Assembly (NCBI GenBank): GCA_029261775.1
Contig: JAJDAR010000329.1
Span: forward strand, 1 to 39,472
Origin: Deltaproteobacteria bacterium
Lineage (GTDB): Bacteria; Myxococcota_A; UBA9160; UBA6930
Direction: 5' to 3'
Length of the DNA stretch: 39,472 nt
Below are positions 1 through 37,800 of this stretch, piece by piece. The notes below the pieces were generated by a model. The model saw only the letters and a program-made list of their open reading frames with translations. It was not told where the DNA came from and did not search any database. Within the stretch, counting starts at the first letter, position 1. Every line of letters starts with the position of its first letter. A program made the translations under genes and the position numbers.

Positions 1-258
1 GGCGCCGGGGAGCTCGAGCCCGATCCGAGCGAAGTCGCCGAGGTCTACCGCGTCCCGCTCGAGGAGCTGCAGCGTCCGGACATCCCGCAGCTTCGACGCA
101 TCCCCGACAGCGAGCACCCCATCATCTCGGTCCGGCTGGTCGGGGCCGACATCCATGCACCGACCGCCGCCCTGATCTTCCAGTTCCGCGAGGTCGCCCT
201 GGCCGGCCGGTCGACGCGTGTGGACCACTTCGAGCAGCCGCGCTTCGCCTGGCGCTAG
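1..258 (+). CDS. NUDIX hydrolase (CoA pyrophosphatase-like), C-terminal part, truncated by window start
   Basis: Frame-1 reading from base 1 ends ...EVAEVYRVPLEEL...HPIISVRLVG..IHAPTAALIFQFREVALAGRSTRVDHFEQPRFAWR* at 258, resembling the C-terminus of NUDIX CoA-pyrophosphatase-like proteins; NUDIX box itself lies outside the window. Confidence 0.7.
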   Translation, partial: GAGELEPDPSEVAEVYRVPLEELQRPDIPQLRRIPDSEHPIISVRLVGADIHAPTAALIFQFREVALAGRSTRVDHFEQPRFAWR

Positions 259-271
259 GCGGTCGGGCCGA

Positions 272-1513
272 TCAGCGCCCTGCGATCGCGGGCAACAAAT
301 CCCGACCCGCGATCTCGACGACCGCGGCGCGGAACGCAGCCTGCGTCACGGGCTCACCGGATCGGATCAGCGCGGCCACGACGTCGTCGAGGTCTGCCTC
401 GCCCTCTGTGGCCGCCTCGATGCGACCGGCGAGCTCGCGCATCAGACCGACGGCCCGGGCGGTCACGACGGAGTCGGCCGTCTCGACGGACAGGCGGACA
501 GCGCTGCGGCCCTTGTCCGCGAGGCGCTCGTGGGACCGCTCGTAGCGGCGTCGGCTGATCGAGCGTGAGCGGCGCAACACCTCGAGGGAGTAGTACTCGG
601 CGAGCCCCTCGACGATCCAATCGCCGCCCTTGCCCGCCCTTGCGCGCATCTGCATGTGCACCAGCTCGTGGAGCAGGGGGCTCGTGCCGTCCGGACCGAT
701 CAGGGGCCGGTTCGCGTGCAGGTAGACCGAGTTCGGGCCGGAGAGGCCGCCGCGCCACATGGGGTCCCCTGCGCTCACCACCAGGACCCGCGGCGGCAGC
801 GGACCGAGCGCGTCGCGGAGCGCGGGCAGCGTCCAGCGCAGGAAGGCCAGCATGTCCTGCCGCCGGACGCCCTGGCCGACCGGTCCGGCGATCGCGATAC
901 GACTGCCGGCGATCCGCTCGCGGACGATGCCGAGCCGTCCCGCCAGCATCCACCCGAGCGGGCGATCGAAGCGGCGCTCGCCGTCGATGATCTCGAAGCG
1001 GCCGTCCCGAAGCGAGCGGTAGGGTGTCGCGATCGACCAGCCGTTCGGCGCGCGAAGCCGCAGGGTCGATCGGGAGGTGGCCCCCTTGACCGAGCGCACC
1101 TTGGCGGGGGGGAACAGGTCGTCGGCACGAAGCAGCGCCCAGTTGTCGGCGCAGCGCGCATCGTAGGTCTTCGAGCTTCGAAGCTGGTCGACGAGGAAGG
1201 TGTAGCGGAGCGAGCCTCCCTCCTTCGGCGGACGCCAGCGGACGACGCCGTCTCCGGTCTCGAGGGTTCCGTCCGCCTCGAAGGCCTGATGGCGGTCCGG
1301 GTCGATCCGGAGCTGGATCCAACGGACTGCCGAGGCTCCCTTGCCCAGCCGGATCCTCGCCTTGGCGACACGCTCGGTCGGCACGAGGCGGGCCTCGAAG
1401 TGCACCTCGTAGCTGCGGTCGGCGGACGGCGCCGCCGGCTGCGCGAGCGCCGGCGCGGCGAGCAGCATGACCCCGGCGAGCAGGCCGCCGATCCAGCCTC
1501 CGTCACCCCTCAT
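272..1513 (-). CDS. Exported HExxH metallopeptidase (M61/gluzincin-like)
   Basis: ATG at 1513 (MRGDGGWIGGLLAGVMLLAAPALAQ signal peptide); motif LLHELVHMQMRARAGKGGDWIVEGLAEYYS (HExxH plus downstream E); ATGA overlap with upstream ORF. Confidence 0.8.
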   Translation of the reverse strand: MRGDGGWIGGLLAGVMLLAAPALAQPAAPSADRSYEVHFEARLVPTERVAKARIRLGKGASAVRWIQLRIDPDRHQAFEADGTLETGDGVVRWRPPKEGGSLRYTFLVDQLRSSKTYDARCADNWALLRADDLFPPAKVRSVKGATSRSTLRLRAPNGWSIATPYRSLRDGRFEIIDGERRFDRPLGWMLAGRLGIVRERIAGSRIAIAGPVGQGVRRQDMLAFLRWTLPALRDALGPLPPRVLVVSAGDPMWRGGLSGPNSVYLHANRPLIGPDGTSPLLHELVHMQMRARAGKGGDWIVEGLAEYYSLEVLRRSRSISRRRYERSHERLADKGRSAVRLSVETADSVVTARAVGLMRELAGRIEAATEGEADLDDVVAALIRSGEPVTQAAFRAAVVEIAGRDLLPAIAGR

Positions 1514-2469
1514 GCCATCGCCTCCTTCGCGATGTCCTGGCCGATCGCGACCCGCTCCTCCACCGGAAGCGTCCCCGGCCACGGGCCGTCCACGGGACCG
1601 AATCGTTCGTCCACCGCCGCCAGTCGGGGCATCAGGCCCGCGCGGTTCGCGACCTGGATCGCGAGACCGGGCCGTGCGTTCAGCTCGAGCAGCACCGGCC
1701 CCCGAACGGCATCGACGACCACGTCGGCGCCCACGTAGCCGAGACCGGTCGGATCGGTCGCGCGCACGGCGATCTCGAGGACCCGGCCGAACTCGGGAAT
1801 GGCCACGTCGAGCACCGACTCGTCGGTGTCGGGGTGTCGGAACACACGCCGATTGCGGAGGACCGCGTGGGTGGTCCGACCCCTGGTGATGTCGATGCCC
1901 GCGCCGATCGCACCCTGATGCAGGTTGGCGCGGCCCCCGCTCTGGGCGGTCGGCAGCCGGATCATCGCCATCACCGGGATGCCGCGATAGATGATGATCC
2001 GCACGTCGGGCACGCCGTCGGGAGAGAGCGAGCGCAGCAGGAGATGGGTCTCGAGTCGCTCCTCGACGAGTGCCGCATCGCGGTGTCCGGCCAGGGCGTA
2101 GAGGCCGGAGATGATCCCCGCCGTGTGGTAGATCAGGTCTTCCCGCGCGAAGGGCCGGCCCCCTCGGAGATAGCCTCCGTCGGGATCGGTGCGGACCACG
2201 AGGATGCCGTTGCCCATGGCGCCGCGGGCCGGCTTCAGGACGAAGGAGTCGTAGCCGCGCAGACGGTCGGGCAGCCGACGGGCCTCGACGTGGAGCTCGG
2301 CGATCGCCAGGAGCTGCGGCACCGGAATGCCCTCGCGGATGCACATCTGCTTGGTCGCGAGCTTGTTGTCGACCAGAGGGTATCGGGAGCGCTCGTTCAT
2401 CCGGAGGGTGAAGTCCGCGTTCCTGCGGTTGATGCCGACCAGGCCCATCTTCGTGAAACGACTCCACAT
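1510..2469 (-). CDS. RimK-related alpha-L-glutamate ligase-like protein (ATP-grasp)
   Basis: 319 aa; GINRRNADFTLRMNERSRYPLVDNKLATKQMCIREGIPVPQ...FVLKPARGAMGNGILVV...LLELNARPGLAIQVANRAGL, typical of the rimK-related E-ligase family. Confidence 0.9.
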   Translation of the reverse strand: MWSRFTKMGLVGINRRNADFTLRMNERSRYPLVDNKLATKQMCIREGIPVPQLLAIAELHVEARRLPDRLRGYDSFVLKPARGAMGNGILVVRTDPDGGYLRGGRPFAREDLIYHTAGIISGLYALAGHRDAALVEERLETHLLLRSLSPDGVPDVRIIIYRGIPVMAMIRLPTAQSGGRANLHQGAIGAGIDITRGRTTHAVLRNRRVFRHPDTDESVLDVAIPEFGRVLEIAVRATDPTGLGYVGADVVVDAVRGPVLLELNARPGLAIQVANRAGLMPRLAAVDERFGPVDGPWPGTLPVEERVAIGQDIAKEAMA

Positions 2470-4058
2470 CAGACGCGCCCGCCGCCGGTGGGCTCGTCGT
2501 CGAGGAGGGTCCTGAACCGGAAGAGCTCGGAAACGCGATAGCCCGTGTAGCCGCCCACCCAGATGAGCGCTCCCATGATCGCCACGACCAGCTCGGGGAA
2601 GGAGAACATCAGATAGGTCGCGTTCTCGCTGCGCAGGAGCGGATGCACCATCGCCGCCACGCCGACCGACCAGGCCCCCTGGATCAGGGCCTCGCGGAGG
2701 CCTTCCTCCGAGCTCGTGATGTAGATGCGCTCGACCAGCATCGTCAGGATCACGATCGGGAAGACCGACCCGGCGAACAGGTCCGGCAGCTTGTAGTCCT
2801 CACCCGCCAGGGCGAAGCCCGTGACGACGAGGACCACGAGGCAGAGCAGGATCGAGAGACGGGGGACCATCAGCAACCTCAGTCTCTCGAGACCCGCGCG
2901 CGCGACGACTGCGACGCCGATCACCAGACCGACCAGGAAGAGCCCGAGCGCGAGCGGGAACTGCCGCAGGGCCAGTGCGATGAGCACGGTCATGAAGGTG
3001 CCGTAGGTGGGGATGCCGATGAGGTTGCGGAACACCGCGACCAGCAGGGCGCCGAGGGGAAGCAGCAGCAGCACGCGCAGGGCGGCCTGGCTTCCGACCG
3101 GCAGGCGGTAGAGGGAGAGCTTGGCCAGGATGGGATTGTCCGGCGCGAGCATGCTGGCGATCTCGTCGGGCCGAAGGGGCTCACGGATGGCCACGTAGCG
3201 GTGCCCGACGGCACGCACGCCCGTCGCCTCGACCCGCGCCTGCTCGCCGCGACCGAGCTCCACGAGGTCGGCGGGACGCTCGCCCAGGAAGCCCTGCACG
3301 GCGCTGACCTGGACCCACACGCCATGGACGTTCACCTCGCCCCAGAGACGGGCCTCGGGAGCCACCCCCTCGCGCAGCTCGAGACCGCGCACCACCCGCG
3401 CGGGGAGGCCCGCGGCCCGCAGCAGGGTGATCAGCAGACGCTCCTTGCCCTCCGCGCTGCCCTCGCGTTGCGCCAGGGTGAGCAGCGCGTCGTCGCCGGC
3501 GCTCGACACCCGCTCCACCTCGTGCGCGACGAAGGAGAAGATCGTGCGCAGGCGACCGGACGTGTCCCCCGGGCCCGGCAGGTCGAGCTGGTCGAGCAGC
3601 TCGGCGACGTCGGGGGCGGAGGCCGGCAACCCGGGAGTGGGCCGGGTGTAGCGGCGCACCAGCGTGGTGCGCAGCGCTTCGACTTCGCCGGCCGGCGGGA
3701 TCACCGTCTCGGCCCGCTGACTCTGGACGCGGAACTGGTAGACGATCTCCTGGATGTCCTCCAGGAATCCGGTCCACACGCCGAGGCGGTGCTCGTCCTG
3801 GTCCCGGATCGAGAAGCTCAGCCGGCCCGACGAAGAGCGCTCGTCGAAGATCGTCTGACCCGGCCCACTCGAGGGCAGCAGCGCGCGGACACTGCCGCGG
3901 CGACCGTCTCCCCGGATGTGGATGCGCAGCTCGACCTGCCACGGCCCCGGCGCGACCGAGGGCGTGAGCGGAAGCTCGTAGTAGAACGCCTTGGTCGCGA
4001 AGAGGCCCAGGCCGAAGGCGAGGAGCAGCAAGCCGCTGAAGAAGACCGGGCGACTCAT
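2469..4058 (-). CDS. Inactive transglutaminase fused to seven transmembrane helices
   Basis: 529 aa; N-terminal TM, extracytoplasmic transglutaminase-like region lacking the catalytic Cys (REGSAEGKERLLITLLRAAGLPARVV), then multiple C-terminal TM helices; TGATG overlap with the ATP-grasp gene. Confidence 0.9.
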   Translation of the reverse strand: MSRPVFFSGLLLLAFGLGLFATKAFYYELPLTPSVAPGPWQVELRIHIRGDGRRGSVRALLPSSGPGQTIFDERSSSGRLSFSIRDQDEHRLGVWTGFLEDIQEIVYQFRVQSQRAETVIPPAGEVEALRTTLVRRYTRPTPGLPASAPDVAELLDQLDLPGPGDTSGRLRTIFSFVAHEVERVSSAGDDALLTLAQREGSAEGKERLLITLLRAAGLPARVVRGLELREGVAPEARLWGEVNVHGVWVQVSAVQGFLGERPADLVELGRGEQARVEATGVRAVGHRYVAIREPLRPDEIASMLAPDNPILAKLSLYRLPVGSQAALRVLLLLPLGALLVAVFRNLIGIPTYGTFMTVLIALALRQFPLALGLFLVGLVIGVAVVARAGLERLRLLMVPRLSILLCLVVLVVTGFALAGEDYKLPDLFAGSVFPIVILTMLVERIYITSSEEGLREALIQGAWSVGVAAMVHPLLRSENATYLMFSFPELVVAIMGALIWVGGYTGYRVSELFRFRTLLDDEPTGGGRV

Positions 4059-4060
4059 GT

Positions 4061-5200
4061 CTACTCCGGATGCTCTTCCGAGTCGAGCTGGCCCGGTGCC
4101 AGTCGCGGGTCCTGATCGGGGGGCAGCGTCTCCGTCAGCTCCGGATCGCCACCCTCGAGACCGATATGGAAGGCGGCGAAGCCGGGGATCACCACCTGCG
4201 AGAGAGCCATGCCGATGATGCGCCCGGAGACCGGCGCCACGACGAGAGAGCGCTCGTTCGACACGGGATCGGTGACGGTGCCGAGCTGCTCGCCCGACTC
4301 GACCTCGGCGCCGAGCCGGCGATCCGTCAGGAAGATCCCTCCGTCGTTCACACGCACCCAGCGCGTACGATAGAAGACCTGGGACCTCTCCCGCTTGCCC
4401 TGCCCGTACATGCGCAGGTTGCCGAGCATCCCGACGACGCCCTCGTAGCCGCGCTCGATCTCACCGGCCTGGAAGCGCATCGGCTCGCCCGCCTCGTAGG
4501 TGACGGCCGGGATGCCCTCGTCGACGGCCGAGCGCCGCAAGGTGCCTGGCTGCCCCTCACTGTGGACGATCAGCCCCGCCCCGAAGGCCTGGGCCATCTG
4601 AAGGATGGCCGCGCTGCGAAGATCGGCTCGCAGCTGGGGCAGGTTCGTGCGGTGGAAGGAGCCGGTGTGGAAGTCGACCAGCCGGTCGCAGTGCCGGATC
4701 ACGCCCTGGAAGAGCGCGCTCGCAATCCGCGAGGCGGAGCTTCCGGCGGGGTGCCCCGGAAAGAAGCGGTTCAGGTCGCGTCGGTCGGGAAGGTATCGGG
4801 AGCTGCGGCGGAACCCGTGCAGGTTGGCGACAGGCACCCCGAGCAGCATCCCGGACAGCTCGGCCGCCTCGATCTTCTCGAAGACCTTGCGCACGATCTC
4901 GATCCCGTTCAGCTCGTCACCGTGCACTCCCGCGGTCAGGCAGACCGTCGGTCCCGGCGTCAGGCCGCGGGTGACCAGGACAGGGATCTCGACCGAGGTC
5001 CCCGCGAACGACTCGCTCGCGCGAAGGAAGAGCCGCCTCTTCGCGCCAGGGGCGACGCTTCGACCGAGCAGCTCGACGGCGTCCCAGGTCTTGGAACGGA
5101 CGGTGATCGGATCTTGCTGCGCGGGCGCCGGTGCCGCCGACAGGGCCATGGCCACGATCGTGAGTGCCGCGGACCACGACAGGGCGCGCCGCCGGGCCAC
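4061..5200 (-). CDS. Exported succinylglutamate desuccinylase/aspartoacylase family hydrolase
   Basis: Motifs LTAGVHGDELNGIEIVRKV, DLNRFFPG, DFHTGSF; GTG at 5200 gives a compact signal peptide MARRRALSWSAALTIVAMALSAAPAPAQ; ORF track starts at ATG 5260, so the start is uncertain. Confidence 0.85.
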   Translation of the reverse strand: MARRRALSWSAALTIVAMALSAAPAPAQQDPITVRSKTWDAVELLGRSVAPGAKRRLFLRASESFAGTSVEIPVLVTRGLTPGPTVCLTAGVHGDELNGIEIVRKVFEKIEAAELSGMLLGVPVANLHGFRRSSRYLPDRRDLNRFFPGHPAGSSASRIASALFQGVIRHCDRLVDFHTGSFHRTNLPQLRADLRSAAILQMAQAFGAGLIVHSEGQPGTLRRSAVDEGIPAVTYEAGEPMRFQAGEIERGYEGVVGMLGNLRMYGQGKRERSQVFYRTRWVRVNDGGIFLTDRRLGAEVESGEQLGTVTDPVSNERSLVVAPVSGRIIGMALSQVVIPGFAAFHIGLEGGDPELTETLPPDQDPRLAPGQLDSEEHPE

Positions 5201-5207
5201 GGGCGCG

Positions 5208-5233
5208 GGATGCCCGGCCTGGGCCGGGCATCC
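5208..5233. repeat. Perfect 12-bp inverted repeat (GGATGCCCGGCC-TG-GGCCGGGCATCC)
   Basis: Read directly; located about 7 nt upstream of the likely GTG start at 5200. Confidence 0.85.
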
Positions 5234-5366
5234 TCGGGGGCAGGTCGAGGCGGGACGCACCGCCCCAAGCTAGAAGAGCGGCACCCGGGCCGCTCTCCCG
5301 AACCCTGCGTGAGGGGATTCCCCGTCTTCGGGGCATCGGGGCGCGGCTCTGCGATCCTGCCGGGCG

Positions 5367-6158
5367 ATGGACCCGCTGACCCTGCCCCCCGACGTCGCGC
5401 TCGAGCTGCAGCACTGGATCGCGGCCGCCCGAGAGCGGCACGGCAACCTGTCGGTCCGCGATCTCCGCCGCGGCATCCAGTCGGTCTCGCGGGTCTACGT
5501 GGAGGCGCGAGCCGCAGGCTCGCTCGGCGGTCGGGCGACGGGCGGGCTCGCGAGGCGTGCCGCCTTTGCCTGCTACTACGCTCCGCTCCACTTTCTCACC
5601 GCCTGGCACCTGGCCTCGGAGCTGCAGGACGTCCTGCCCCGAGCCCCCGGCCGCATCCTGGACCTGGGCTGCGGGACCGCCGCCGTGAGCGCCGCCCTCG
5701 CGCGTCGGGCGGACGCGGGCCCGGCCGTCCGGGTCGAGGGGTTCGACGCCCTCGGCTGGGCGCTCGGGGAGGCTCGGCACACCTGGCGAGCCTTCGGTCT
5801 GCGCGGCCGCGGCCGGCGCTCGTCGCTGCCGAAGGGGTTTCCGCGCGCGGGCGAGGGCGACCTCGTCGTCGCCGGGTGGTTCCTGAACGAGTGCGAGGCC
5901 GGCACCCGGGATGCGATCGCGGGGTCGCTGCTCGAGAGCGCGAGCCGGGGCGCGCAGCTGCTGGTCCTGGAGCCGCTGGCCGGCCGGCTGGTGCCGTGGT
6001 GGGACGCCTGGGCCGGGGCGGCGGATGCGCGCGGCCTGCGCTCGGGACTGTGGAAGCAGCCCGTCGCCCTCCCGGACGAGCTCGCGCAGCTCGACGAGGC
6101 AGCCGGCCTCGATCACTCGGTCCTCGGCGCCCGCTTCGTCGCGGGGACGTCGGGTTGA
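5367..6158 (+). CDS. Class I SAM-dependent methyltransferase
   Basis: 263 aa; motif I ILDLGCGTAAVSAAL, followed by DLVVAGWFLNE. Confidence 0.75.
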   Translation: MDPLTLPPDVALELQHWIAAARERHGNLSVRDLRRGIQSVSRVYVEARAAGSLGGRATGGLARRAAFACYYAPLHFLTAWHLASELQDVLPRAPGRILDLGCGTAAVSAALARRADAGPAVRVEGFDALGWALGEARHTWRAFGLRGRGRRSSLPKGFPRAGEGDLVVAGWFLNECEAGTRDAIAGSLLESASRGAQLLVLEPLAGRLVPWWDAWAGAADARGLRSGLWKQPVALPDELAQLDEAAGLDHSVLGARFVAGTSG

Positions 6159-8141: not shown

Positions 8142-8825
8142 TCAGCTCTCGCCTGCGAGGGTCAGCACGTCGTTCAACATCAGGCGGGGATCCAGATAGC
8201 CGGTGCTGTAGATGTTCCGCACGCCGCCGGCCGCATCGACCAGGAACACCTTCAGGACGTGATCGAGCTGCGGCGTGGCCTCGCCGTCGGGGCCGAGCCA
8301 GACGCCGACGTGCTGTCCGAAGTCGCGGAGCACCTCGTCGATCCCCGCCTGGTCGGGGGCGGTGAGGAAGCGCCAGCGTCCCTTCGGTTGCAAGGCCTCG
8401 CGTTGGCGGGCCATCTGCTCGGGGCGGTCGCGCTGCGGATCGAAGCTCACGGTGACGAGTCCGACCCCGGCATCGAGGCCCCGTTCGGCGAGCAGGCGAT
8501 CCAATCGCTGCATCGTCGCCGTCGCCTGCGGGCAGGCGTGACCGCAGGAGAGGAAGACGAACGAGACGACGGCGACCCGGCCGGCTTCGAGCAGCGGCAC
8601 GGGCCCGCCGTCCGGGTCCAGCAGCTGGTGTCGCCCCACGCGTTGGATGACCGGGAGCTCGTAGCTGCCCGGAGCCGGCGGCTCGAAAACGGGCGCCGGC
8701 GAGGGCGGAGGGGCCACGTGCGCTCGCCCGGGCTCCGCGTCCCCGTGCGCCTCGGCCCCGGCCACGAGGCCGAGGACCAGCGCCACGAGCCACGCGCGCG
8801 TCGAGACCTTCCGCCGCCACCTCAT
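8142..8825 (-). CDS. SCO1/SenC family copper chaperone-like protein
   Basis: VAVVSFVFLSCGHACPQATATM (CxxxCP), VTVSFDPQRDRPEQM, DHVLKVFLVD; N-terminal signal; ATGA overlap with the SBP56 gene. Confidence 0.88.
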   Translation of the reverse strand: MRWRRKVSTRAWLVALVLGLVAGAEAHGDAEPGRAHVAPPPSPAPVFEPPAPGSYELPVIQRVGRHQLLDPDGGPVPLLEAGRVAVVSFVFLSCGHACPQATATMQRLDRLLAERGLDAGVGLVTVSFDPQRDRPEQMARQREALQPKGRWRFLTAPDQAGIDEVLRDFGQHVGVWLGPDGEATPQLDHVLKVFLVDAAGGVRNIYSTGYLDPRLMLNDVLTLAGES

Positions 8826-10138
8826 CGGGTGCGTGCGGCGAGCCCCGGGCCCGCAGCTTCGTCTCCGCGGCGGACGCTCACGAGGCCGTGCTGACCGAAG
8901 CGCATGATGTGTGGTCGGCCGAGACCCAGCTTGCGGAAGTCGAGTTCGAAGGTCGGGGTGAGCTGCTTGCCGTCCCAGGTGAAGGCCTTCAGGAACTGCT
9001 CGTCCTCCCCACCGTGTCCGTCCCACTGGCCCAGCAGGCTGCTCGTGAAGTAGATCCGCTTGCCGTCCCACGACTGCGAGACCATGTTGACCTGGCTGCC
9101 GATCTTCCGCTCGTAGATCTGCTTGGGCGCACGGGGGTCGGTCACGTCGAACACGCGCACCATGCCGTCCAGGAAGGTGTCCACGAAGAGCGTCGTGTCG
9201 TCGGCCGAGAGGCTGATGTCGACGGGCAGCGGAACCTTGGCGGGGTCTCCGATGTCCGCCAGCTCGACCGCCTCGAAGCGGCCGTCGTCCTTGCGGAAGA
9301 CGCCCCACAGCTTGGAGGTCAGCGCGGCCGACGTGAAGGCCCAGGTGTGGGTCGGGTCGAGGGCCCAGCGGATCTCGAGGGGGGCCCCGGGGATCTTCAG
9401 CGTCTGGAGCGGCTTCCGGGCGTGGAAGTCCCAGACGACCACCGTGTCCCCGAAGTTCTTCATGGCCTCCGCATCGCCGAGCAGGTCGCCGAGCTTGCGC
9501 ATGTAGTTCTGGTGGCCGGTGAACGACGACGTGAGCATCCGATTCAGGTGCGCGTTGACCCGCGCGTCGTATCCGTACTCCGCGCCTTTCGGCATCCAGA
9601 TCGTGCGCACGAACTGGCCGGCGTTGGTGTACTCGACCAGCGCCGTCTTCCCGCCGTGGTCCTTGCCGTTCGAGAGCGCGCTGATCAGCATGCGTCCGGG
9701 GATCGCGTAGAAGCCGTGGGGACCCACGACGCCTCCGGTCTGCTCCTCGAAGTCGGTGATGGTGTTGACCAGCGCGGGCTGGGCCGGGTTCGTGGCGATG
9801 TCGAACACGTCGATCCGCGAGTCATCGAGCCCGCCGGCCCACAGGAAGCGGCGATCGTCGCTCAGCCCCGCATGGTGCGCTTCGTGCCGCCCCCCGACCG
9901 AGACGGAGGCGACCACCTTCCCGTAGTCGTCGCGCTCGGGGTTCGCGCCGACCGTGACCAGCTTGTCGGATCCGTCTCCGAGCCCCTCGATGCCGAGGGT
10001 CCAGACGTAGACGTAGTCCTCCTGGCCGACCAGCTTCGGCAGGTAGGGCGACTGGCAGGTCTCGTCGGCGTGCGCAGTGGCGCCGGCCAGGCTGAAGACG
10101 ATGGCGAGAGCCGCCGTGGCGAGAGGTCGAGTGGCCAT
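8822..10138 (-). CDS. SBP56-family protein (selenium-binding protein / methanethiol oxidase-like), exported
   Basis: 438 aa; signal peptide MATRPLATAALAIVFSLAGATAHA; GRHEAHHAGLSDDRRFLWAGGLDDSRIDVFDI, GPHGFYAIPGRMLISALSN, VNMVSQSWDGKRIYFTSSLL. Confidence 0.88.
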   Translation of the reverse strand: MATRPLATAALAIVFSLAGATAHADETCQSPYLPKLVGQEDYVYVWTLGIEGLGDGSDKLVTVGANPERDDYGKVVASVSVGGRHEAHHAGLSDDRRFLWAGGLDDSRIDVFDIATNPAQPALVNTITDFEEQTGGVVGPHGFYAIPGRMLISALSNGKDHGGKTALVEYTNAGQFVRTIWMPKGAEYGYDARVNAHLNRMLTSSFTGHQNYMRKLGDLLGDAEAMKNFGDTVVVWDFHARKPLQTLKIPGAPLEIRWALDPTHTWAFTSAALTSKLWGVFRKDDGRFEAVELADIGDPAKVPLPVDISLSADDTTLFVDTFLDGMVRVFDVTDPRAPKQIYERKIGSQVNMVSQSWDGKRIYFTSSLLGQWDGHGGEDEQFLKAFTWDGKQLTPTFELDFRKLGLGRPHIMRFGQHGLVSVRRGDEAAGPGLAARTR

Positions 10139-17166: not shown

Positions 17167-19029
17167 CTAGGGATCGGCGGTCAGCACCGCGCCCGCGAGG
17201 GGCTCGATCAGCGAAGCCCAGCGCCGATCCGCAGCCACGTACCGACCCAGGAAACCGAACCCGTAGGTCGTGACCAGGGCGTCCGGACAGGACGGCAGCG
17301 CGGGGCAGAAGTTGCTGAAGGCAGCATGCCCCGCGCCGAGGATCTCGACGAGGAAGCGGGGTGCCGCGGACTTGTCGAAGACGGGCATCTGATCGGTCAG
17401 GAACGGCGTCGTCGTGTCGACCTCGCCGCCCTGGATCATGATCGGCACCGCGAGCGGAAGCTGGGGATCGATGAAGTTCGCCACCGAGTCGTACTCGGGT
17501 GCGAGCGGCAACGAGGCACGGAAGCGTGCATCGAGGGCGGGCACGCGGATCGCGGTCATGCCTCCGAAGGAGTGACCCGCCACGCCGATCCGATCGACGT
17601 CCGCGAGGCCGTGGAGAGGCGACAGCGGGTCGGCACTCTCGGCCAGCAGCCAGTCCAGGCTGCGGCTCACGTCCGTCGGCCTCTCCAGGAACGACGTGAT
17701 CAGGTTCGTCGGGTCCGCACAGGTGGGTCCGGAGACGTTGGGCGGGTGGGTCATCCCGACGACGACGAAGCCCAGGCGGGCCAGGTCCGCCGTCAGGAAC
17801 AGGGTCTGCGTCGGGATGCCGCACGAGCCGTGGGAGAAGAGCAGCACCGGGAGCTCGGCCAGGCCCGGCGCGACGGGCGCGCCCGGAACCCCTCCCAGGG
17901 CTGCGTCCGGCGCTGCGGTCGAGTCGGTCGGGTACCAGACCGTCAGATCGAGGACCCGGGCGTTCCCGAGCGGACTCGTGAACGCGATCTGGTCGAGCTG
18001 GACGCCCGCTTCGAAGGGACCGATCGCATCCGGGAAGAAGCCGCCGCGATCGACGGTGACGGTGTCGAAGCCGACGGCCGTCCCTCCGGAGGCGGCGAAG
18101 CGCTTGATCGAGATCGTGTTGCGGCCCGGAGGCAGGCCGCCGACCGGGAGGACCGCCGTCGCGCCGTCGGCAGCGAGCTGCAGGTCCGCCGTGAGATCGA
18201 CGAGCTGGGGTGAGACGTCTGCTGCGTCGAGCCCACGCGCCAGCGTCGCCTCCACGGTCTCGCCTGCCTGAAGCGCGGGCGAGAAGGACACGTCGACCTG
18301 CACGTCCGGCGCGAAGATCAGCTCCCCCTCGCTGGGAGAGGTGATCGTCACCGGGCTCAGGAAGCAGGAGAGCAGCAGCGGAGCCGCGAGCACGAGCCAT
18401 CGCGGGGCGCCTGTGAAACGCCGGGAGCGGAACGCGATCGCGGCGAGGCCGAGCCACGCAAGCAGCGATGCAGCGGGCTCGGGCACGACGGCGAGATCGT
18501 CGAGGAAGAAGCTGGTGGCCTGGGGGCCGGCGCTCACACGCAGCCCCACGATTCCCGGCGCGTCGAGACGAACGCGCTCCTGGGGAAAGCCGCTTGCGCC
18601 TGGAGTCGGCAGACCGACCCATTGCGCGATCCGCTGATCCAGGGCGTCGAAGACTTCGACGACCAGCGCCTCGCCGCGCAGGCTGGTGAGCGAAAGCTCC
18701 AGCCCGGACACCGGTTGCTGGAGAAGAACGTGGAGGATCGGGTCGAAGAGATTCACGACGCCCCGATCGCCCGACGTGGCGATCGATCCCGCCGGCACGT
18801 CCCCGGGAACCGCGAAGCCGACGAACGCACCGAGCGTGGTCTCGTCCAGCACGGCCGAGGGACTGAACACGAACGGGTCGAGCGACTCGAGGGACGGATC
18901 GGTGAACACCGCCAGGCTGTCGAAGTCGAGCAGCGGCGCCGCTGACGCGGCCCGACCCGTCAGCGCGAGCAGCATCAACAGCAGAAAACCAGCAAAAGCG
19001 TGACGTCGCATGCAGAATCCTTGACCCAT
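17167..19029 (-). CDS. Chimeric exported protein: PEP-CTERM-type N-terminal module + lipobox + alpha/beta hydrolase (dienelactone hydrolase/PAF-AH-like)
   Basis: N-terminal signal MRRHAFAGFLLLMLLALTGRAASA (alternative ATG at 19011); internal VPEPAASLLAWLGLAAIAFRSRR; then RWLVLAAPLLLSC; then LLFSHGSCGIP and GVAGHSFGGMTAIR. Confidence 0.75.
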   Translation of the reverse strand: MGQGFCMRRHAFAGFLLLMLLALTGRAASAAPLLDFDSLAVFTDPSLESLDPFVFSPSAVLDETTLGAFVGFAVPGDVPAGSIATSGDRGVVNLFDPILHVLLQQPVSGLELSLTSLRGEALVVEVFDALDQRIAQWVGLPTPGASGFPQERVRLDAPGIVGLRVSAGPQATSFFLDDLAVVPEPAASLLAWLGLAAIAFRSRRFTGAPRWLVLAAPLLLSCFLSPVTITSPSEGELIFAPDVQVDVSFSPALQAGETVEATLARGLDAADVSPQLVDLTADLQLAADGATAVLPVGGLPPGRNTISIKRFAASGGTAVGFDTVTVDRGGFFPDAIGPFEAGVQLDQIAFTSPLGNARVLDLTVWYPTDSTAAPDAALGGVPGAPVAPGLAELPVLLFSHGSCGIPTQTLFLTADLARLGFVVVGMTHPPNVSGPTCADPTNLITSFLERPTDVSRSLDWLLAESADPLSPLHGLADVDRIGVAGHSFGGMTAIRVPALDARFRASLPLAPEYDSVANFIDPQLPLAVPIMIQGGEVDTTTPFLTDQMPVFDKSAAPRFLVEILGAGHAAFSNFCPALPSCPDALVTTYGFGFLGRYVAADRRWASLIEPLAGAVLTADP

Positions 19030-25012: not shown

Positions 25013-27385
25013 TCAGAGCAGCGGGTCGCAGCGCGCCTCGACGCCGAACGGGAACTCCTGACGGCTCGACGCGTCGCAGACTCCGTTGTCGGTGCAGGTG
25101 GTCTCGATCCGACCGCCGGGGCGGAGGAAGAGCGAGATCTGGTCCAGCGCGGCAGGCGTCACGCGCAACCGATTGTGCGGATCGCAGCGATTGCCGACGG
25201 CCTGGTCGTTGAACAGGGGGGGCACGAAGGGCAGATGGGCGGGGTCGTCGAGATCGAAGGCGGCGGTGTCGATGACCATGTAGGCCGAGTCCTGCGGGCC
25301 CTTCGAAGAGGGCATGCCCGCGAGATCCTGCATCGCCGAGGACTCGTGCACGGGCAACCCGAGCGTGGCTCCGGCGAGCTGCGAGCCGAGGTTCGAGACC
25401 TGCTGATCGTGCAGCGCCACGTGCAGCAGGATCTTCTTCGCGATGCTTCCGGGCAGCGGGTCGCGCGTGATGTGGGTCGCGTAGCCGGCCGGGTCCCCGC
25501 GCGCCCAGAGCTCGTGGGAGAGACCGATGCCGATCGCCTGATTCATCCGATCCGGGATCACCAGGTCGAGGGCCTGCTCGAACTGCAGGAAGGGTGTGGC
25601 GCGCTGCAGCAGGAGGCTGAAGTTGATCGCGGGCACGTCCAGGACGAGTCGCTCGACATCCGGTGTCAGGGCCGCGAAGAGGTGCCCCATGATCCCCCCG
25701 AGACTCGCGCCCCAGTAGTAGATCTCGTCGTTCTCGAGCAGCGCACCCGTGCCGCCCGGCCCCTGGAAGGCCGGGTCGCGATTGAAATCACCTTCACGCA
25801 TCATGCGGGCCAGCAGCAGGGCATGCACCTGGCCCTGGCGAAGGCGGTCGGGCAGCGCCTGGACCAGATCCGGGTTCACCGTGACCTTGAAGATGAAGCT
25901 CTGCGGCAGGCTGGGCCGCGTGTCGGGCCCCGACATGCCGACCCAGTTCGTGCCGCCCGGGATCAGGCCCGGGGCCAGCGCCGAACCGGCCACGCCGTCG
26001 GCCGTACCCGGGCCCTCGCCGAACAGGCCGTGCCCGATCACGATCGGCGGCAGCGGCGAGAAGCCACCCGCCGCGTCGAAGACGTCGCAGGGGATGCCGA
26101 TGCCGAAGGGTGCATCCGTGGTCGTCGACCACACGGGCAGCCCGTCCGGCCCGCGCACGAGATTGCGGACCTCGGTGTTCTCGACGAAGGGGTCGCCGCC
26201 GAGGAAGAGCGGCGCCTGGAAGGTCCCCTCGACGAAGCGCCAGACCGGCTCGGCGGGATCCGTGCAGCCCGGGTTCCGCTCGTCGACGTCGTCCACCTGG
26301 AAGGTCTGGAGGCCCGCCGCGCGCTGGGCGTCGAGCCAGGCGAAGGCCTGATCGCGCATCGAGACCAGCTCGCGGGTCAGGGAGGCATCGCTCTGCACCT
26401 GGAAGTCGAAGGCCAGCTGCAGGTCGCCACGCGGGACCCCGACCTCGTCGAGGCGCCGAAGCACGGGCTCGAGCTGCTGGCGTCGGGCCTCGACCGCCGG
26501 CAGGTCGGACGGCGCCCCGTCACGGATCGCGCGGAACACCGGCTCGGGCTCGATCGCGTTGCCCTGCCCATCCACCAGCCTGCGGACCGCGACCAGGTAG
26601 CGCTTGCCCGGCGTCAGGCTGGCCCCGGGGCGCAGGAAGGTCACGATGCGATCCGAGTCCGTGGTGGTGCCGTCGTTCTCGATCCAGTGGATCTTCCGTT
26701 CCCCCGTCTCCCAGTCGATCAGCAGGGTCGGGCTCTGATCCCGGAGACCCTTCTCGGTGTAGGTCCGGGTCGCCGCCACGATCCTCGGGGCCTCCGAGCG
26801 CACCGGGTCGGGGGTCGGCTCGAAGTGCATCAGCACCTGCACGGTCGGACTGAAGCCGTCGTTCTCCAGGAACGGAGTCGGGTCGGCGGGGCCGATGTCG
26901 ATGGTCGGGAAGAGCCGCGCGATCACCGGGAGCGAGGTCGGGCCGTAGGCGATGCGCACGCCCGTCTCCGTCGAGGCCGGCTCCTCGAAACGCGACGACG
27001 GGTAGGGCAGCAGGCACTCGACCTGGTTCAGGATCTCGCACTCGTCGGGGCGGTCCAGCGACACCAGGTCGAAGCGCGTCCGTGTGTGCCGGGGCTCGCC
27101 CGCGCCGACCCAGGCCTCGAGCTCGTAGGACCCGGCGGCCAGACCGCTCAGGGTTCCCGCGACACCACCGGGGATCACGGCGAAGCTGCTCGCCGGAAGG
27201 GGCTGGCCGTCCAGGTGGAGCACCAGGCTCTGGACGTCGCTCAGGGGCGGCAGATCGAGCTGGAAGCCGACGTCGCCCGGGGCGCTCACCAGGCCATCGG
27301 GCGGGCTCGCGAAGGCGAAGGGCCGGGGCACGCAGCCGGGGAGCAAGGCCAGCAGCAGCAGGGGAACGAGAGCATGACGAAGCAT
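25013..27385 (-). CDS. Large secreted lipoprotein, alpha/beta-hydrolase-like
   Basis: Lipobox LLLLALLPGC; ECLLPYPSSRF; PIVIGHGLFG; nucleophile-elbow-like YYWGASLGGIMGHLFAAL. Confidence 0.7.
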   Translation of the reverse strand: MLRHALVPLLLLALLPGCVPRPFAFASPPDGLVSAPGDVGFQLDLPPLSDVQSLVLHLDGQPLPASSFAVIPGGVAGTLSGLAAGSYELEAWVGAGEPRHTRTRFDLVSLDRPDECEILNQVECLLPYPSSRFEEPASTETGVRIAYGPTSLPVIARLFPTIDIGPADPTPFLENDGFSPTVQVLMHFEPTPDPVRSEAPRIVAATRTYTEKGLRDQSPTLLIDWETGERKIHWIENDGTTTDSDRIVTFLRPGASLTPGKRYLVAVRRLVDGQGNAIEPEPVFRAIRDGAPSDLPAVEARRQQLEPVLRRLDEVGVPRGDLQLAFDFQVQSDASLTRELVSMRDQAFAWLDAQRAAGLQTFQVDDVDERNPGCTDPAEPVWRFVEGTFQAPLFLGGDPFVENTEVRNLVRGPDGLPVWSTTTDAPFGIGIPCDVFDAAGGFSPLPPIVIGHGLFGEGPGTADGVAGSALAPGLIPGGTNWVGMSGPDTRPSLPQSFIFKVTVNPDLVQALPDRLRQGQVHALLLARMMREGDFNRDPAFQGPGGTGALLENDEIYYWGASLGGIMGHLFAALTPDVERLVLDVPAINFSLLLQRATPFLQFEQALDLVIPDRMNQAIGIGLSHELWARGDPAGYATHITRDPLPGSIAKKILLHVALHDQQVSNLGSQLAGATLGLPVHESSAMQDLAGMPSSKGPQDSAYMVIDTAAFDLDDPAHLPFVPPLFNDQAVGNRCDPHNRLRVTPAALDQISLFLRPGGRIETTCTDNGVCDASSRQEFPFGVEARCDPLL

Positions 27386-34300: not shown

Positions 34301-34503
34301 GGCCGGATCTGCGCTTCCAGGGCGAGATGGCCCAGCTGCTGACCATCCTGATGGTGATCAACATGATCGGCGCCATCACGGTGGTCCCGGCCTTCTACTC
34401 GATCTTCCGGCCCAAGGTCGCCACGGCGCTCCTGAACGACGAGCAGCGCGAGGCGATCCGGATCCAAAAGGAAGCCGAGCGCCGCAAGGGACTGGCCGAC
34501 TAG
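31384..34503 (+). CDS. RND superfamily transporter (MMPL/HpnN-like), paralog 1
   Basis: 1039 aa; two TM blocks; IPMIITARAVSHTVQMAERFFED, SVGVGIGVDYAIYIVDRIRQEV, TTGMAVTFTATTIVGGIAMW; SD AGGAAGAGGAACG. Confidence 0.92.
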   Translation: MAEAQPPPGYHGRESATLKFAKLIVRRRAIVAALLILSTSFFAYPIFNTVMTGFGVPLGGPTVRIDTNARDQWPDHPFIHAQDKFSSKFGSATAVAIGVVVKEGTIFTPEILQKIDRITKSVDGIEASDLLPAYDSQTDARDELREEWEDEMDEAGEEVSAFQMIRRLDRIFPPYPVNHDQVRSVTHRSTRVFEIQPDGAIENRLLIQKVPETQEEADAIRELVRQNPPVIFGRFVSYDEKAALITANFVTDRLSGSDVYKAVFEHVKKIKAAEDDENVTVYVSGVPILVGWILEHAFQILLYVILTIAVIFLLLWAYFRRWHGVVIPFIAAIATVIWGLGYTGWRGITFDPLILVIPMIITARAVSHTVQMAERFFEDYEIMLPRYGDPDVAKREVATIAMGELIVPGTLGIVTDVAGLLAIMVTTIPQMRDLGEFGAFWVLSIIVTVEILHPILICYLPAPKEHEHFLPEFMIRFTRGVGNVTTHPRWKYVIAGTTVFLFISSTWVTLFYSKIGEASPGTPLLWPDHEWNLATAVIADKFGGVDSFVVFTDGDKENASGDAEPIRRMEELERWMESNTDLGATVSVVPFLKAYWGQNHYGDPKWSYIPADSGGVRAALFQLRQNGAPGFLRPFMTDDSRYANVSLIYRDHKGDTLINVSRAADAYIKQNPIGQVIVRLDKNHAEREASFFSKQKILDNLYYMLGPLLPERAHTLTVKVRKEGGSYEELPVTRKNGEGELPEWFEDFNEQALTDYEDAVDELEEGDVFTWPETLAEWDADDVQWWWESEEYGIRAVGVNTRDLIVHDVKAVEGLPRYQPTNSWTRGMQFVLAGGIMGILAATNDEVERSHVANIALIFLIIFVLHSVTYQSVPSGFIILLQIATATMLSLAYMAIKGVGLNINTLPVQSVGVGIGVDYAIYIVDRIRQEVADTADIDEAVRRAVRTTGMAVTFTATTIVGGIAMWALPRPLGPDLRFQGEMAQLLTILMVINMIGAITVVPAFYSIFRPKVATALLNDEQREAIRIQKEAERRKGLAD

Positions 34504-34535
34504 GCCGCCGGAGCCGCTAGACCCGCTCCCGCCGG

Positions 34536-34565
34536 CCGGGTGCCCTCTCCAGGGAAGGCACCCGG
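34536..34565. terminator. Perfect 9-bp stem hairpin downstream of RND1
   Basis: CCGGGTGCC(34536-34544)...GGCACCCGG(34557-34565), about 33 nt after the stop; no U-tract. Confidence 0.5.
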
Positions 34566-34663
34566 TCGGCCCGCTCCCCTTCCTGACCGCCGCCCGGCAC
34601 CCTCCCGGCCCGGGGTGGCTGCGCCCCTGCGGGAGCCTCGGCCCTCCGGGGGGACCTCCCCGC

Positions 34664-34693
34664 TTGACGGCGCGGTCGCAGGCGAAATATCGT
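34664..34693 (+). promoter_or_regulatory. Candidate sigma70-like promoter (TTGACG-18-TATCGT) for the second RND gene
   Basis: Read between the RND1 hairpin and the RND2 start. Confidence 0.4.
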
Positions 34694-34716
34694 GCCCCCG
34701 GGTGCTGGTGGTGCCG

Positions 34717-34756
34717 CCGTGGGAGGATCCACGGGGCGCCCGGGATCGTGCCGTGG
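34717..34756 (+). promoter_or_regulatory. Alternative-pairing leader element upstream of RND2
   Basis: CCGTGG(34717-34722)-CCACGG(34729-34734)-CCGTGG(34751-34756): the central arm can pair with either flank. Confidence 0.35.
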
Positions 34757-34838
34757 CGTGCGGGACGTGCACCCGGCAAAGGGAACGCAGACGTCGTCCC
34801 GGCTCGCGCCGCGGACGCCGAGGGGTGGCACGACGGTT

Positions 34839-37800
34839 ATGGCGGAAGGCACCGGGCACGTGGTTCGCGAGACGGCGACGCTTCGCTTCGCACGCTGGGT
34901 GGTGCGAAACCGCTTCGGTGTCGCGATGGCGTTGGTCATCGTGAGCCTCTTCTTCCTCTACCCGACGGTGAACGCCGTGTCGTCGGCCTACGGCTACCCG
35001 TTGCCCGGGCCCGAGGTCCGCGTCGACGCCAGCGCGCGGGCCCAGTGGCCCGACCATCCCTTCATCCACGCCCAGGACAAGTTCTCGAAGGCCTTCGGCT
35101 CCTCCTCGCTGGTCGCGATCGCGGTCGTCGTCAAGGAGGGCACGATCTTCACGCCGGAGACCCTGCAGAAGCTGCAGCGGATCACCCATCGCCTGGACGG
35201 CGAGGGTTACAACAGCCAGACCGACAAGCGCGAGGAGGAGCGCGACCGCATCGAGAGCCGGCTCGGAGAGGACGAGGAGATCGACACCTTCGATCTCATC
35301 AAGCAGCTCGACCGGAAGTTCCCGCCCTATCCGGTGAACCACGATCGGGTGCAGGCGCTGACCCACGGCTCGACCCGCGTCGTCACCATCGAGCCCGATG
35401 GAGCGATCACCTCCGAGGTGCTGATCGACAAGCCCCCTGAGACCCAGGCGGATGCCGACGAGATCCGCGAGAAGGTCCGCCAGAACCCGCCCTTCATCTT
35501 CGGCCGCCTCGTCTCGCGCGACGAGAAGGGTGCATTCCTCGCCGCCAACTTCATCACCGACCGGCTCTCGGGCCGCGAGGTGTACATGGCCGTGTTCAAC
35601 CACGTCCGGAAGATCAAGGACGGCTGGAAGTGCGGAGAGCAGGAGCTCGCCGAAGGGATGGACTGCACCGAGGGCGAGTGGATCTGGGAGCCCGAGGAGG
35701 ACGAGAACCACTCGATCTACATCTCGGGCGATCCGGTGGGCACGGGTTGGATCATCACCCACGCCTTCGAGATCGGATTCTTCGTCATCGCCACCATCGC
35801 GCTGACCTTCCTGCTGCTCCTGATCTACTTCCGCCGGCTCCACGGTGTGCTGATCCCCTTCATCGCGGCGATGGCGACGGCCGTCTGGGGGCTCGGCTTC
35901 ACCGGCTGGATGCAGATCACCTTCGATCCGCTCGTCCTCGTGATCCCCATGATCATCACGGCCCGGGCCGTGTCGCACACGGTGCAGATGGCGGAGCGCT
36001 TCTTCGAAGACTTCGAGATGATGATGGAACGCTTCGATCAGGATGCCGAGAAGGCCAAGATCGAGGCTGCCACCGTCGCCATGGCCGAGCTGATCGTGCC
36101 CGGCACCCTCGGAATCGTGACCGACTTCCTGGGACTGCTCGTCATCCTGATCACCTCGATCCCGCAGATGCGCGATCTGGCCTTCTTCGGCGCCTTCTGG
36201 GTCTTCACCATCCTCTTCACGGTGGAAATCCTCCATCCGGTGATGATCTGCTACCTCGCGCCGCCTCACGATTCGGAGCACTACCTGCCGAGCTTCATGA
36301 TCCGGCTGATGCGCTGGATCGGGAACTTCGTGACCGGACCGGTCACGAAGTACGCGGTCGCCGGCGTGGCCGTCGGACTGCTGGTGGGCTCGTCCTACAT
36401 CGCCTTCACAGGCAGCAAGATCGGCGAGGCGAGCCCCGGCACACCCTTGCTCTGGCCAGACCACGAGTTCAACCAGGCCACCGCAGCCATCGCCGACAAG
36501 TTCGGCGGCGTCGACTCGTTCGTGGTCTATGCCGACGGCGACCGGGACAAGGCGACCGCCGATCCGGAGCCCATCCAGAAGATCGAGAACTTCGAGCGCT
36601 GGATGGGGGCGAACACCAACCTCGGCGTGCCGGTCTCCATCGTCCCGATCATCCGGGCCTATTGGCAGCAGAACCACTACGGCGACCCGAAGTGGTACTT
36701 CATCCCGAACCACCCGGGCACGGTCCGGAACGTCATCTTCCAGCTGCGCCAGAACGGCTCGCCGGGGTTCCTGCGCCCCTACGCGACCGACGACGACCGG
36801 AAGGCGACGATCTCGTTCTTCTACCCCGATCACAAGGGCGACACGATCACGCGGGCCGTGATCGCCGCCTCGGAGTTCATCAAGCTCAACCCGATCGGCG
36901 AGGTCAACATCCGGCTGGAGAAGGACAAGGCCAAGCGGGAGGCGAGCTTCTTCAACTACGACAAGCTGGCCGACAACACCTACTACATGCTCGGGCCCAT
37001 GCTGCCGCCGCGCAATCACACGCTGCGGGTGTCGATCCGCCACGCGGACGGCAACTACGAGTACATCGACGTCCCGAAGGTCGATTCCTCCGAGGGGCTC
37101 CCGGACTGGCTGGAAGAGTTCAGCGAAGACGCGATGACCGACTTCGAGGACGCCCGGGACGACGTCGAGGAGGGCGAGTACTTCGCCTGGCCGGACGAAC
37201 TCGAGAGCTGGGACGCCAGCGACGTCGACGCGATCTACGAAAACGAGGATCTCGGCATCCGCGTGGTGTCGATGAAGACCAAGAACCTGATCGTCCACGA
37301 CCTCAAGGCCGTGGACGGCGTGCCCAAGTACCAGCCCACGAACTCGTGGACGCGCGGCGTGCAGTTCGTGATGGCGGGCGGCGTGATGGGCGTACTGGCG
37401 GCGGTCAACGACGAGGTCGAGCGCGGCCACGTCGCGAACATCTCGCTGATCCTGCTGGTCATCTACATCCTGCAGACCCTGACCTACCGCTCGCTCTGGA
37501 GCGGCACGATCATCGTGATCCAGCTGGCGACGGCCACGATGATCTCGCTCGCCTACATGGCCGTGAACAACGTGGGCCTCAACATCAACACCCTGCCGGT
37601 GCAGTCCGTCGGAGTGGGGATCGGGGTCGACTACGCCATCTACATCGTGGACCGGATACGCCAGGAGGTCGTGGAGACCAGAGGGGACATCGACGAGGCG
37701 GTTCGCCGGACCATCAGCACCACGGGCATGGCGGTCAGCTTCACGGCGACCACGATCGTCGGCGGCATCGCGACCTGGATGGCCTCGAACCTGCGCTTCC

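Follow-up and report, generated by a model that had tools for sequence, protein, structure and literature searches.

Among described systems, the one closest to the locus examined here is rloABC of Pseudomonas aeruginosa, whose RloB-RloC pair was characterised in 2025 (PMC12239564). This species has redundant RloA proteases. RloA is exported, belongs to the retropepsins, and cleaves polyglutamate; low salt makes a triple rloA mutant sick, and deleting rloB or rloC rescues it (PMC12239564). Phenotypes that tie rlo to cell shape and to tolerance of hypo-osmotic conditions and antibiotics are known only from P. aeruginosa (PMC12239564). In Shewanella vesiculosa, a transposon screen found that losing the inactive-transglutaminase gene increases vesicle production (PMC12096838). 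An AspA or M61-like partner is mentioned in neither paper. Among the papers searched, none linked AspA with RimK or Rlo; the survey of Iyer 2009 may already mention an AspA or HExxH partner. Herein, we analyzed a 39,472-nt stretch of DNA from an uncultured Deltaproteobacteria bacterium (GTDB Myxococcota_A; UBA9160; UBA6930), contig JAJDAR010000329.1 of assembly GCA_029261775.1, which we call the window. At 272-5260 on its minus strand, four genes encode, in order, an AspA-like hydrolase, an RloB-like membrane protein, an RloC-like ligase, and an M61-like HExxH protein (M61L). This is a real, conserved operon and a divergent relative of the Rlo operons, and its M61L family occurs almost only in genomes that also carry RloB.

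A conserved four-gene operon related to rloABC

The first gene, aspA (4061-5260, 399 aa), encodes an exported AstE/AspA-type (M14-like) metallohydrolase. It is followed by rloB (2469-4058, 529 aa), with an N-terminal transmembrane helix, a periplasmic inactive transglutaminase domain, and a C-terminal seven-transmembrane (7TM) domain, and by rloC (1510-2469, 319 aa), encoding a cytosolic ATP-grasp protein similar to RimK-related alpha-L-glutamate ligases. The last gene (272-1513, 413 aa) encodes M61L, an exported protein with an N-terminal beta domain and a gluzincin catalytic domain (HELVH-x15-E). A sequence-only reading of the window had described these four genes as one operon, and every open reading frame (ORF) and junction was as it had stated: a 2-nt gap between aspA and rloB, a 1-nt overlap (TGATG) between rloB and rloC, and a 4-nt overlap (ATGA) between rloC and M61L. 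The aspA ORF has a GTG start as called, and the real start possibly lies further inside. The same gene order was found again in many genera and is therefore not due to chance.

Profile searches against Pfam and NCBIfam placed the first three proteins clearly, in agreement with the families proposed from the sequence, while the HExxH protein matched M61 only below threshold. RloB passed the Pfam cut-offs for PF14402 (E 1.9e-58), PF01841 (Transglut_core), and PF14400 (Transglut_i_TM). Its PF14402 score of 198 bits, compared with >300 bits in canonical loci, marks it as a divergent RloB subtype. The label "inactive" is right for its transglutaminase domain because the nucleophile cysteine is missing in all 19 relatives compared, none of which has a Cys at the expected position (residues 197-207 of the window protein). 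The AlphaFold2 model of RloB has a predicted local distance difference test (pLDDT) score of 82, and its transglutaminase-fold part matches 3isr (E 1.5e-13); for the 7TM part, Foldseek returned no informative match. RloC matched PF14397 (E 1.2e-73) and TIGR02291 (346.9 bits, above the cut-off of 314.2), and its closest solved relatives by sequence are RimK ligases. These matches agree with the earlier assignment of the middle gene pair to the ATP-grasp/inactive-transglutaminase-7TM neighborhood. The pair type was thus correctly recognized, but it is now more than a predicted neighborhood: it has been named rlo and partly tested by genetics in P. aeruginosa (PMC12239564). A far more divergent 7TM_transglut subtype (50-70 bits) was also seen in three loci (L059, L060, and L061) with no RloC, M61L, or AspA nearby; it is possibly a separate system.

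The window operon resembles P. aeruginosa rloABC in pairing an inactive transglutaminase-7TM protein with a RimK-related ATP-grasp protein and in placing an exported hydrolase gene first. It differs in that this first gene encodes an AspA-type metallohydrolase instead of a retropepsin, in its fourth, M61-like gene, and in its divergent RloB. The window is the start of its contig (C329) in a 5.3 Mb genome of 578 contigs, 93% complete. The end of another contig, C285, encodes a sequence with 96% identity over the final 157 residues of M61L; this is a strain-variant contig running past the window edge. Beyond that edge, it carries a Nudix gene on the plus strand, an alpha/beta hydrolase gene, and then a 2-oxoglutarate dehydrogenase E1 gene. 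No retropepsin was found in the window or past its edge on C285. Genome-wide, there is one RloB and one retropepsin (a single PF05618 match, on contig C150), so the absence of a linked retropepsin, which the sequence-only reading had reported for the window, extends to its surroundings. The C285 contig and the PF05618 search together rule out an ordinary arrangement with a retropepsin just outside the window. The operon is bounded downstream by the convergent Nudix gene, whose 3' end lies at 1-258 (+) and which is complete on the variant contig (L020:13609-14313). A divergent methyltransferase-like ORF (5367-6158) borders aspA.

Co-occurrence of the hydrolases with RloB

We surveyed 91 genomes of the window's class, with co-occurrence counts that ignore shared ancestry. 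PF14402 was present in 36 of them. The M61L gene was directly 3' of rloC in 27 loci, bearing out the expectation that the HExxH gene is conserved beside the ATP-grasp gene, and an exported aspA was directly 5' of rloB, in the RloA position, in 20 loci. M61L occurred in 30/91 genomes, all rloB-positive (Fisher p 1e-17). Of these, 29 have PF14402; the remaining one, G087, is counted because a partial RloB lies next to RloA and AspA where a contig ends. Exported AspA occurred in 29/91 genomes, again all rloB-positive. In genera of one family (f8), aspA lies away from the rlo genes and a TerC-like gene is found upstream of rloB. In five loci of this family (L041, L043, L044, L045, and L047), where aspA is missing, the gene directly upstream of rloB encodes a membrane protein judged by eye to be TerC-like.

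To look beyond the class, GTDB representative contigs were scanned for M61L, which yielded 551 relatives. The best 80 were examined and are largely from Gammaproteobacteria (Microbulbifer, Arenimonas, Woeseia, Halioglobus, Thiococcus, and others). Almost none of these best 80 have rlo genes in their 7-kb flanks; nevertheless, of 35 genomes whose M61L does not adjoin rlo genes, 33 carry RloB elsewhere. In an even sample of 369 Gammaproteobacteria genomes (Microbulbifer's class), again counted without regard to shared ancestry, RloB was present in 79 and a strong M61L in 9, all nine of which carry RloB (hypergeometric p 6.5e-7). Weak matches to the M61L profile (E 1e-10 to 1e-3) were left out of this count, and two that were inspected are ordinary M61 proteins. 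M61L presence therefore predicts RloB, and RloB does not predict M61L.

The aspA gene in the RloA position of those 20 class loci would also fit a simple non-orthologous replacement, in which AspA, M61L, or both took RloA's job after loss of the retropepsin. Consistent with this, the assemblies of 18 of the 30 class genomes with M61L lack a retropepsin altogether, and the four complete RloA-linked class loci lie in genomes without M61L. Canonical class loci (L035-L038, PF14402 >300 bits) have RloA, and M61L is not linked to them. However, the hydrolases and RloA also coexist. Two of the nine M61L-positive gammaproteobacteria carry contiguous RloA-RloB-RloC-M61L (G304, L154) and AspA-RloA-RloB-RloC (G163, L161), respectively; AspA is divergent beside RloA in L038 and L191; and G087 has both RloA and M61L. 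The idea that two zinc hydrolases stand in the retropepsin's place thus holds for the window, where no retropepsin is linked, and strictly for those 18 genomes, but not for L154, L161, L038, and L191. These four loci weaken strict replacement, which we consider a somewhat unlikely explanation.

A different explanation starts from the unlinked genes. In Gammaproteobacteria, M61L is mostly unlinked to rlo and lies in varied neighborhoods; no shared partner emerged there, the recurrent neighbors being mainly antisense shadow ORFs and genus-level synteny (Microbulbifer and Arenimonas). Exported AspA is likewise unlinked in several class genomes (L196-L201). M61L and AspA might then be general scavengers of envelope peptides, placed in one operon so that they respond together to, say, osmotic or wall stress, and not because they act on an RloC product. 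General scavengers should be distributed more widely than is seen, however: M61L still tracks RloB when unlinked (33/35 and 9/9 genomes), and within the class exported AspA was found only in rloB-positive genomes (29/29). We regard this explanation as unlikely.

The two exported hydrolases and the wider window

M61L scored 13.3 bits against the Pfam M61 family (PF05299), under the cut-off of 22, and a search of the PDB by sequence with the M61L profile gave nothing meaningful. The fold search was more informative. The AlphaFold2 model (pLDDT 94, predicted template modelling score 0.89) matched the M61/M1 folds 7xyo (E 1.8e-18), 4fgm (E 1.2e-16), and 8j9c (E 7.6e-15), and hhalign aligned M61L with true M61 at 96.4% probability. 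M61L shares with these aminopeptidases a beta N-terminal domain, a gluzincin domain, HExxH, and a downstream Glu in W-x-x-E-G. It differs from M61 in its sub-threshold Pfam score, its lack of a PDZ domain, its HELVH-x15-E spacing, its shorter length (413 aa), and two changed motifs. The M61 motif GGLEH reads GGLSGP, with Ser258 in 80/80 sequences at the position held by Glu in L172 and L173, genuine M61 proteins of two gammaproteobacterial genomes, and the tyrosine of SYYxKG is missing in 80/80, with no Tyr at residues 349-353 of M61L. In M1/M61 enzymes, the GGLEH glutamate holds the substrate by its free amino end, and the transition state is stabilized by the tyrosine. Because both residues are lost, M61L is unlikely to be an ordinary aminopeptidase. 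An invariant DPMWRGG stretch including Arg254 adjoins the GGLSGP motif, and we speculate that it may bind a carboxylate. Judged by sequence and predicted fold, M61L is a distinct, unnamed family of M61-like two-domain gluzincins with a rebuilt substrate site.

The same two losses could mean that M61L is catalytically dead or a non-peptidase partner, a sensor or scaffold that binds periplasmic peptide as RloB's dead transglutaminase domain might. Catalytically dead enzymes seldom keep a complete metal site, whereas HExxH and the third ligand are intact here: H282, E283, H286, and E302 are invariant in 80/80 sequences, making this explanation improbable. Synteny and co-occurrence rule out that the HExxH gene is a chance neighbor.

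The window AspA matched PF24827 (E 4.7e-42) and has a hydrophobic export signal, so the operon does contain the two exported hydrolases expected from the sequence, one AspA-type and one M61-like. It fell far below the NCBIfam equivalog cut-offs for AstE, aspartoacylase, and DoeB (best 67.2 bits against a cut-off of 402.7). AstE/AspA/DoeB deacylases (3cdx and 6twm) share its catalytic fold and residues; the window AspA differs from them in being exported, in two invariant cysteines, and in these low scores. A second AspA of the same genome, 38% identical, has no signal and is predicted to be cytosolic. Metal and catalytic residues H113, E116, H198, and E256 are the same in all 49 exported and all 21 rim-linked relatives; several arginines are also invariant in both groups, which would suit an acidic substrate. 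C107 and C191 are invariant only in the 49 exported (non-rim) sequences and absent from the 21 rim-linked ones; they may form a disulfide, as fits an oxidised periplasmic protein. In a tree of 58 AspA sequences, a 100/100 branch separates the 20 rim-linked ones, all devoid of a hydrophobic signal, from the remaining 38, nearly all of which have one. AspA thus divides into two groups: a signal-less one beside RimK/RimB and an exported one with two invariant cysteines beside Rlo genes.

RimK and RimB are a polyglutamate ligase and its protease, and the RimK target is ribosomal protein S6 in the species tested. The genome carries a RimK-RimB pair with a retropepsin predicted to be cytosolic, on contig C150 and outside the window operon; this retropepsin (RimB) has no evident signal and lies between rimK and the second, signal-less aspA. 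The rimK-rimB-aspA operon without export signals (about 7650-10412 of C150, L002/L032, genome G000) has counterparts, with the three genes variously ordered, in about 18 class genomes. Like the window operon, it combines an ATP-grasp glutamate ligase with a hydrolase and contains a homologous AspA; unlike it, its parts lack export signals and are predicted to be cytosolic, and there is no transglutaminase-7TM protein. In one genome (Co_bin.122, L070/L163), aspA-rimB-rimK-rloB-rloC-M61L-aspA lie in one stretch, joining the cytosolic and exported systems.

Elsewhere in the window, an SBP56 gene (methanethiol-oxidase-type, PF05694) at 8142-10138 (-) is directly followed by a gene judged by eye to be SCO1-like. 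A 620-aa ORF at 17167-19029 (-) has a C-terminal part matching PETase-like hydrolases (PF12740, E 1.6e-13). ORFs of 790 aa at 25013-27385 (-) and 976 aa at 34500-37430 (-) have no Pfam match at 1e-5 and represent unusual proteins or else, the DNA being 70% GC, wrong frames.

Proposed ligation and trimming in the envelope

The reading that we favor is an Rlo-type operon in which RloC makes a product, RloB exports or displays it, and the exported hydrolases trim it; we give it roughly an even chance of being right as a whole. In the cytosol, RloC would spend ATP on attaching amino acids, probably as chains of glutamate, to an acceptor that is either free or bound to the envelope. RloB would carry, flip, or display the product across the inner membrane, with the dead transglutaminase domain binding peptide. 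In the periplasm, exported hydrolases would strip residues, here AspA, of metallo-carboxypeptidase/deacylase type with its conserved arginines, and M61L. By analogy, such a scheme of ligase conjugate, 7TM protein, and trimming, already put forward from the sequence, fits the published P. aeruginosa epistasis. The 27-locus synteny, the tracking of rloB by M61L and exported AspA, the L154 operon, and the pairing of AspA with RimK/RimB argue for it.

Several observations weigh against this reading. The co-occurrence counts take no account of shared ancestry, some rloB loci (L056) lack both hydrolases as neighbors, and 70 of the 79 sampled rloB-positive gammaproteobacteria have no M61L, which is thus not required. 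The window RloB scored 184.5 bits against the NCBIfam RloB model (exception type), short of the cut-off of 900. The activity of M61L is uncertain given its missing glutamate and tyrosine. We know of no substrate or product for any Rlo system.

What is new here is the tie between the M61L family and RloB and the split between exported and rim-linked AspA; the RloB-RloC system itself was already known. Taken together, they tentatively suggest a bacterial ligation and trimming toolkit in two compartments, in which AspA-family enzymes would accompany RimK in the cytosol and, in an exported form with a disulfide bond, RloB/RloC in the periplasm. M61L would be a Rlo-dependent fourth component in Gammaproteobacteria and Myxococcota-type lineages, acting on the RloC product; we hold this joint proposal to be somewhat short of even. 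In P. aeruginosa, rlo governs tolerance of osmotic stress and of antibiotics as well as biofilm formation. AspA and M61L, as additional exported hydrolases whose occurrence follows that of RloB, offer new handles on the RloC product, since their substrates should be that product, and genomes with RloA plus M61L or AspA provide a setting where the order of trimming becomes addressable.

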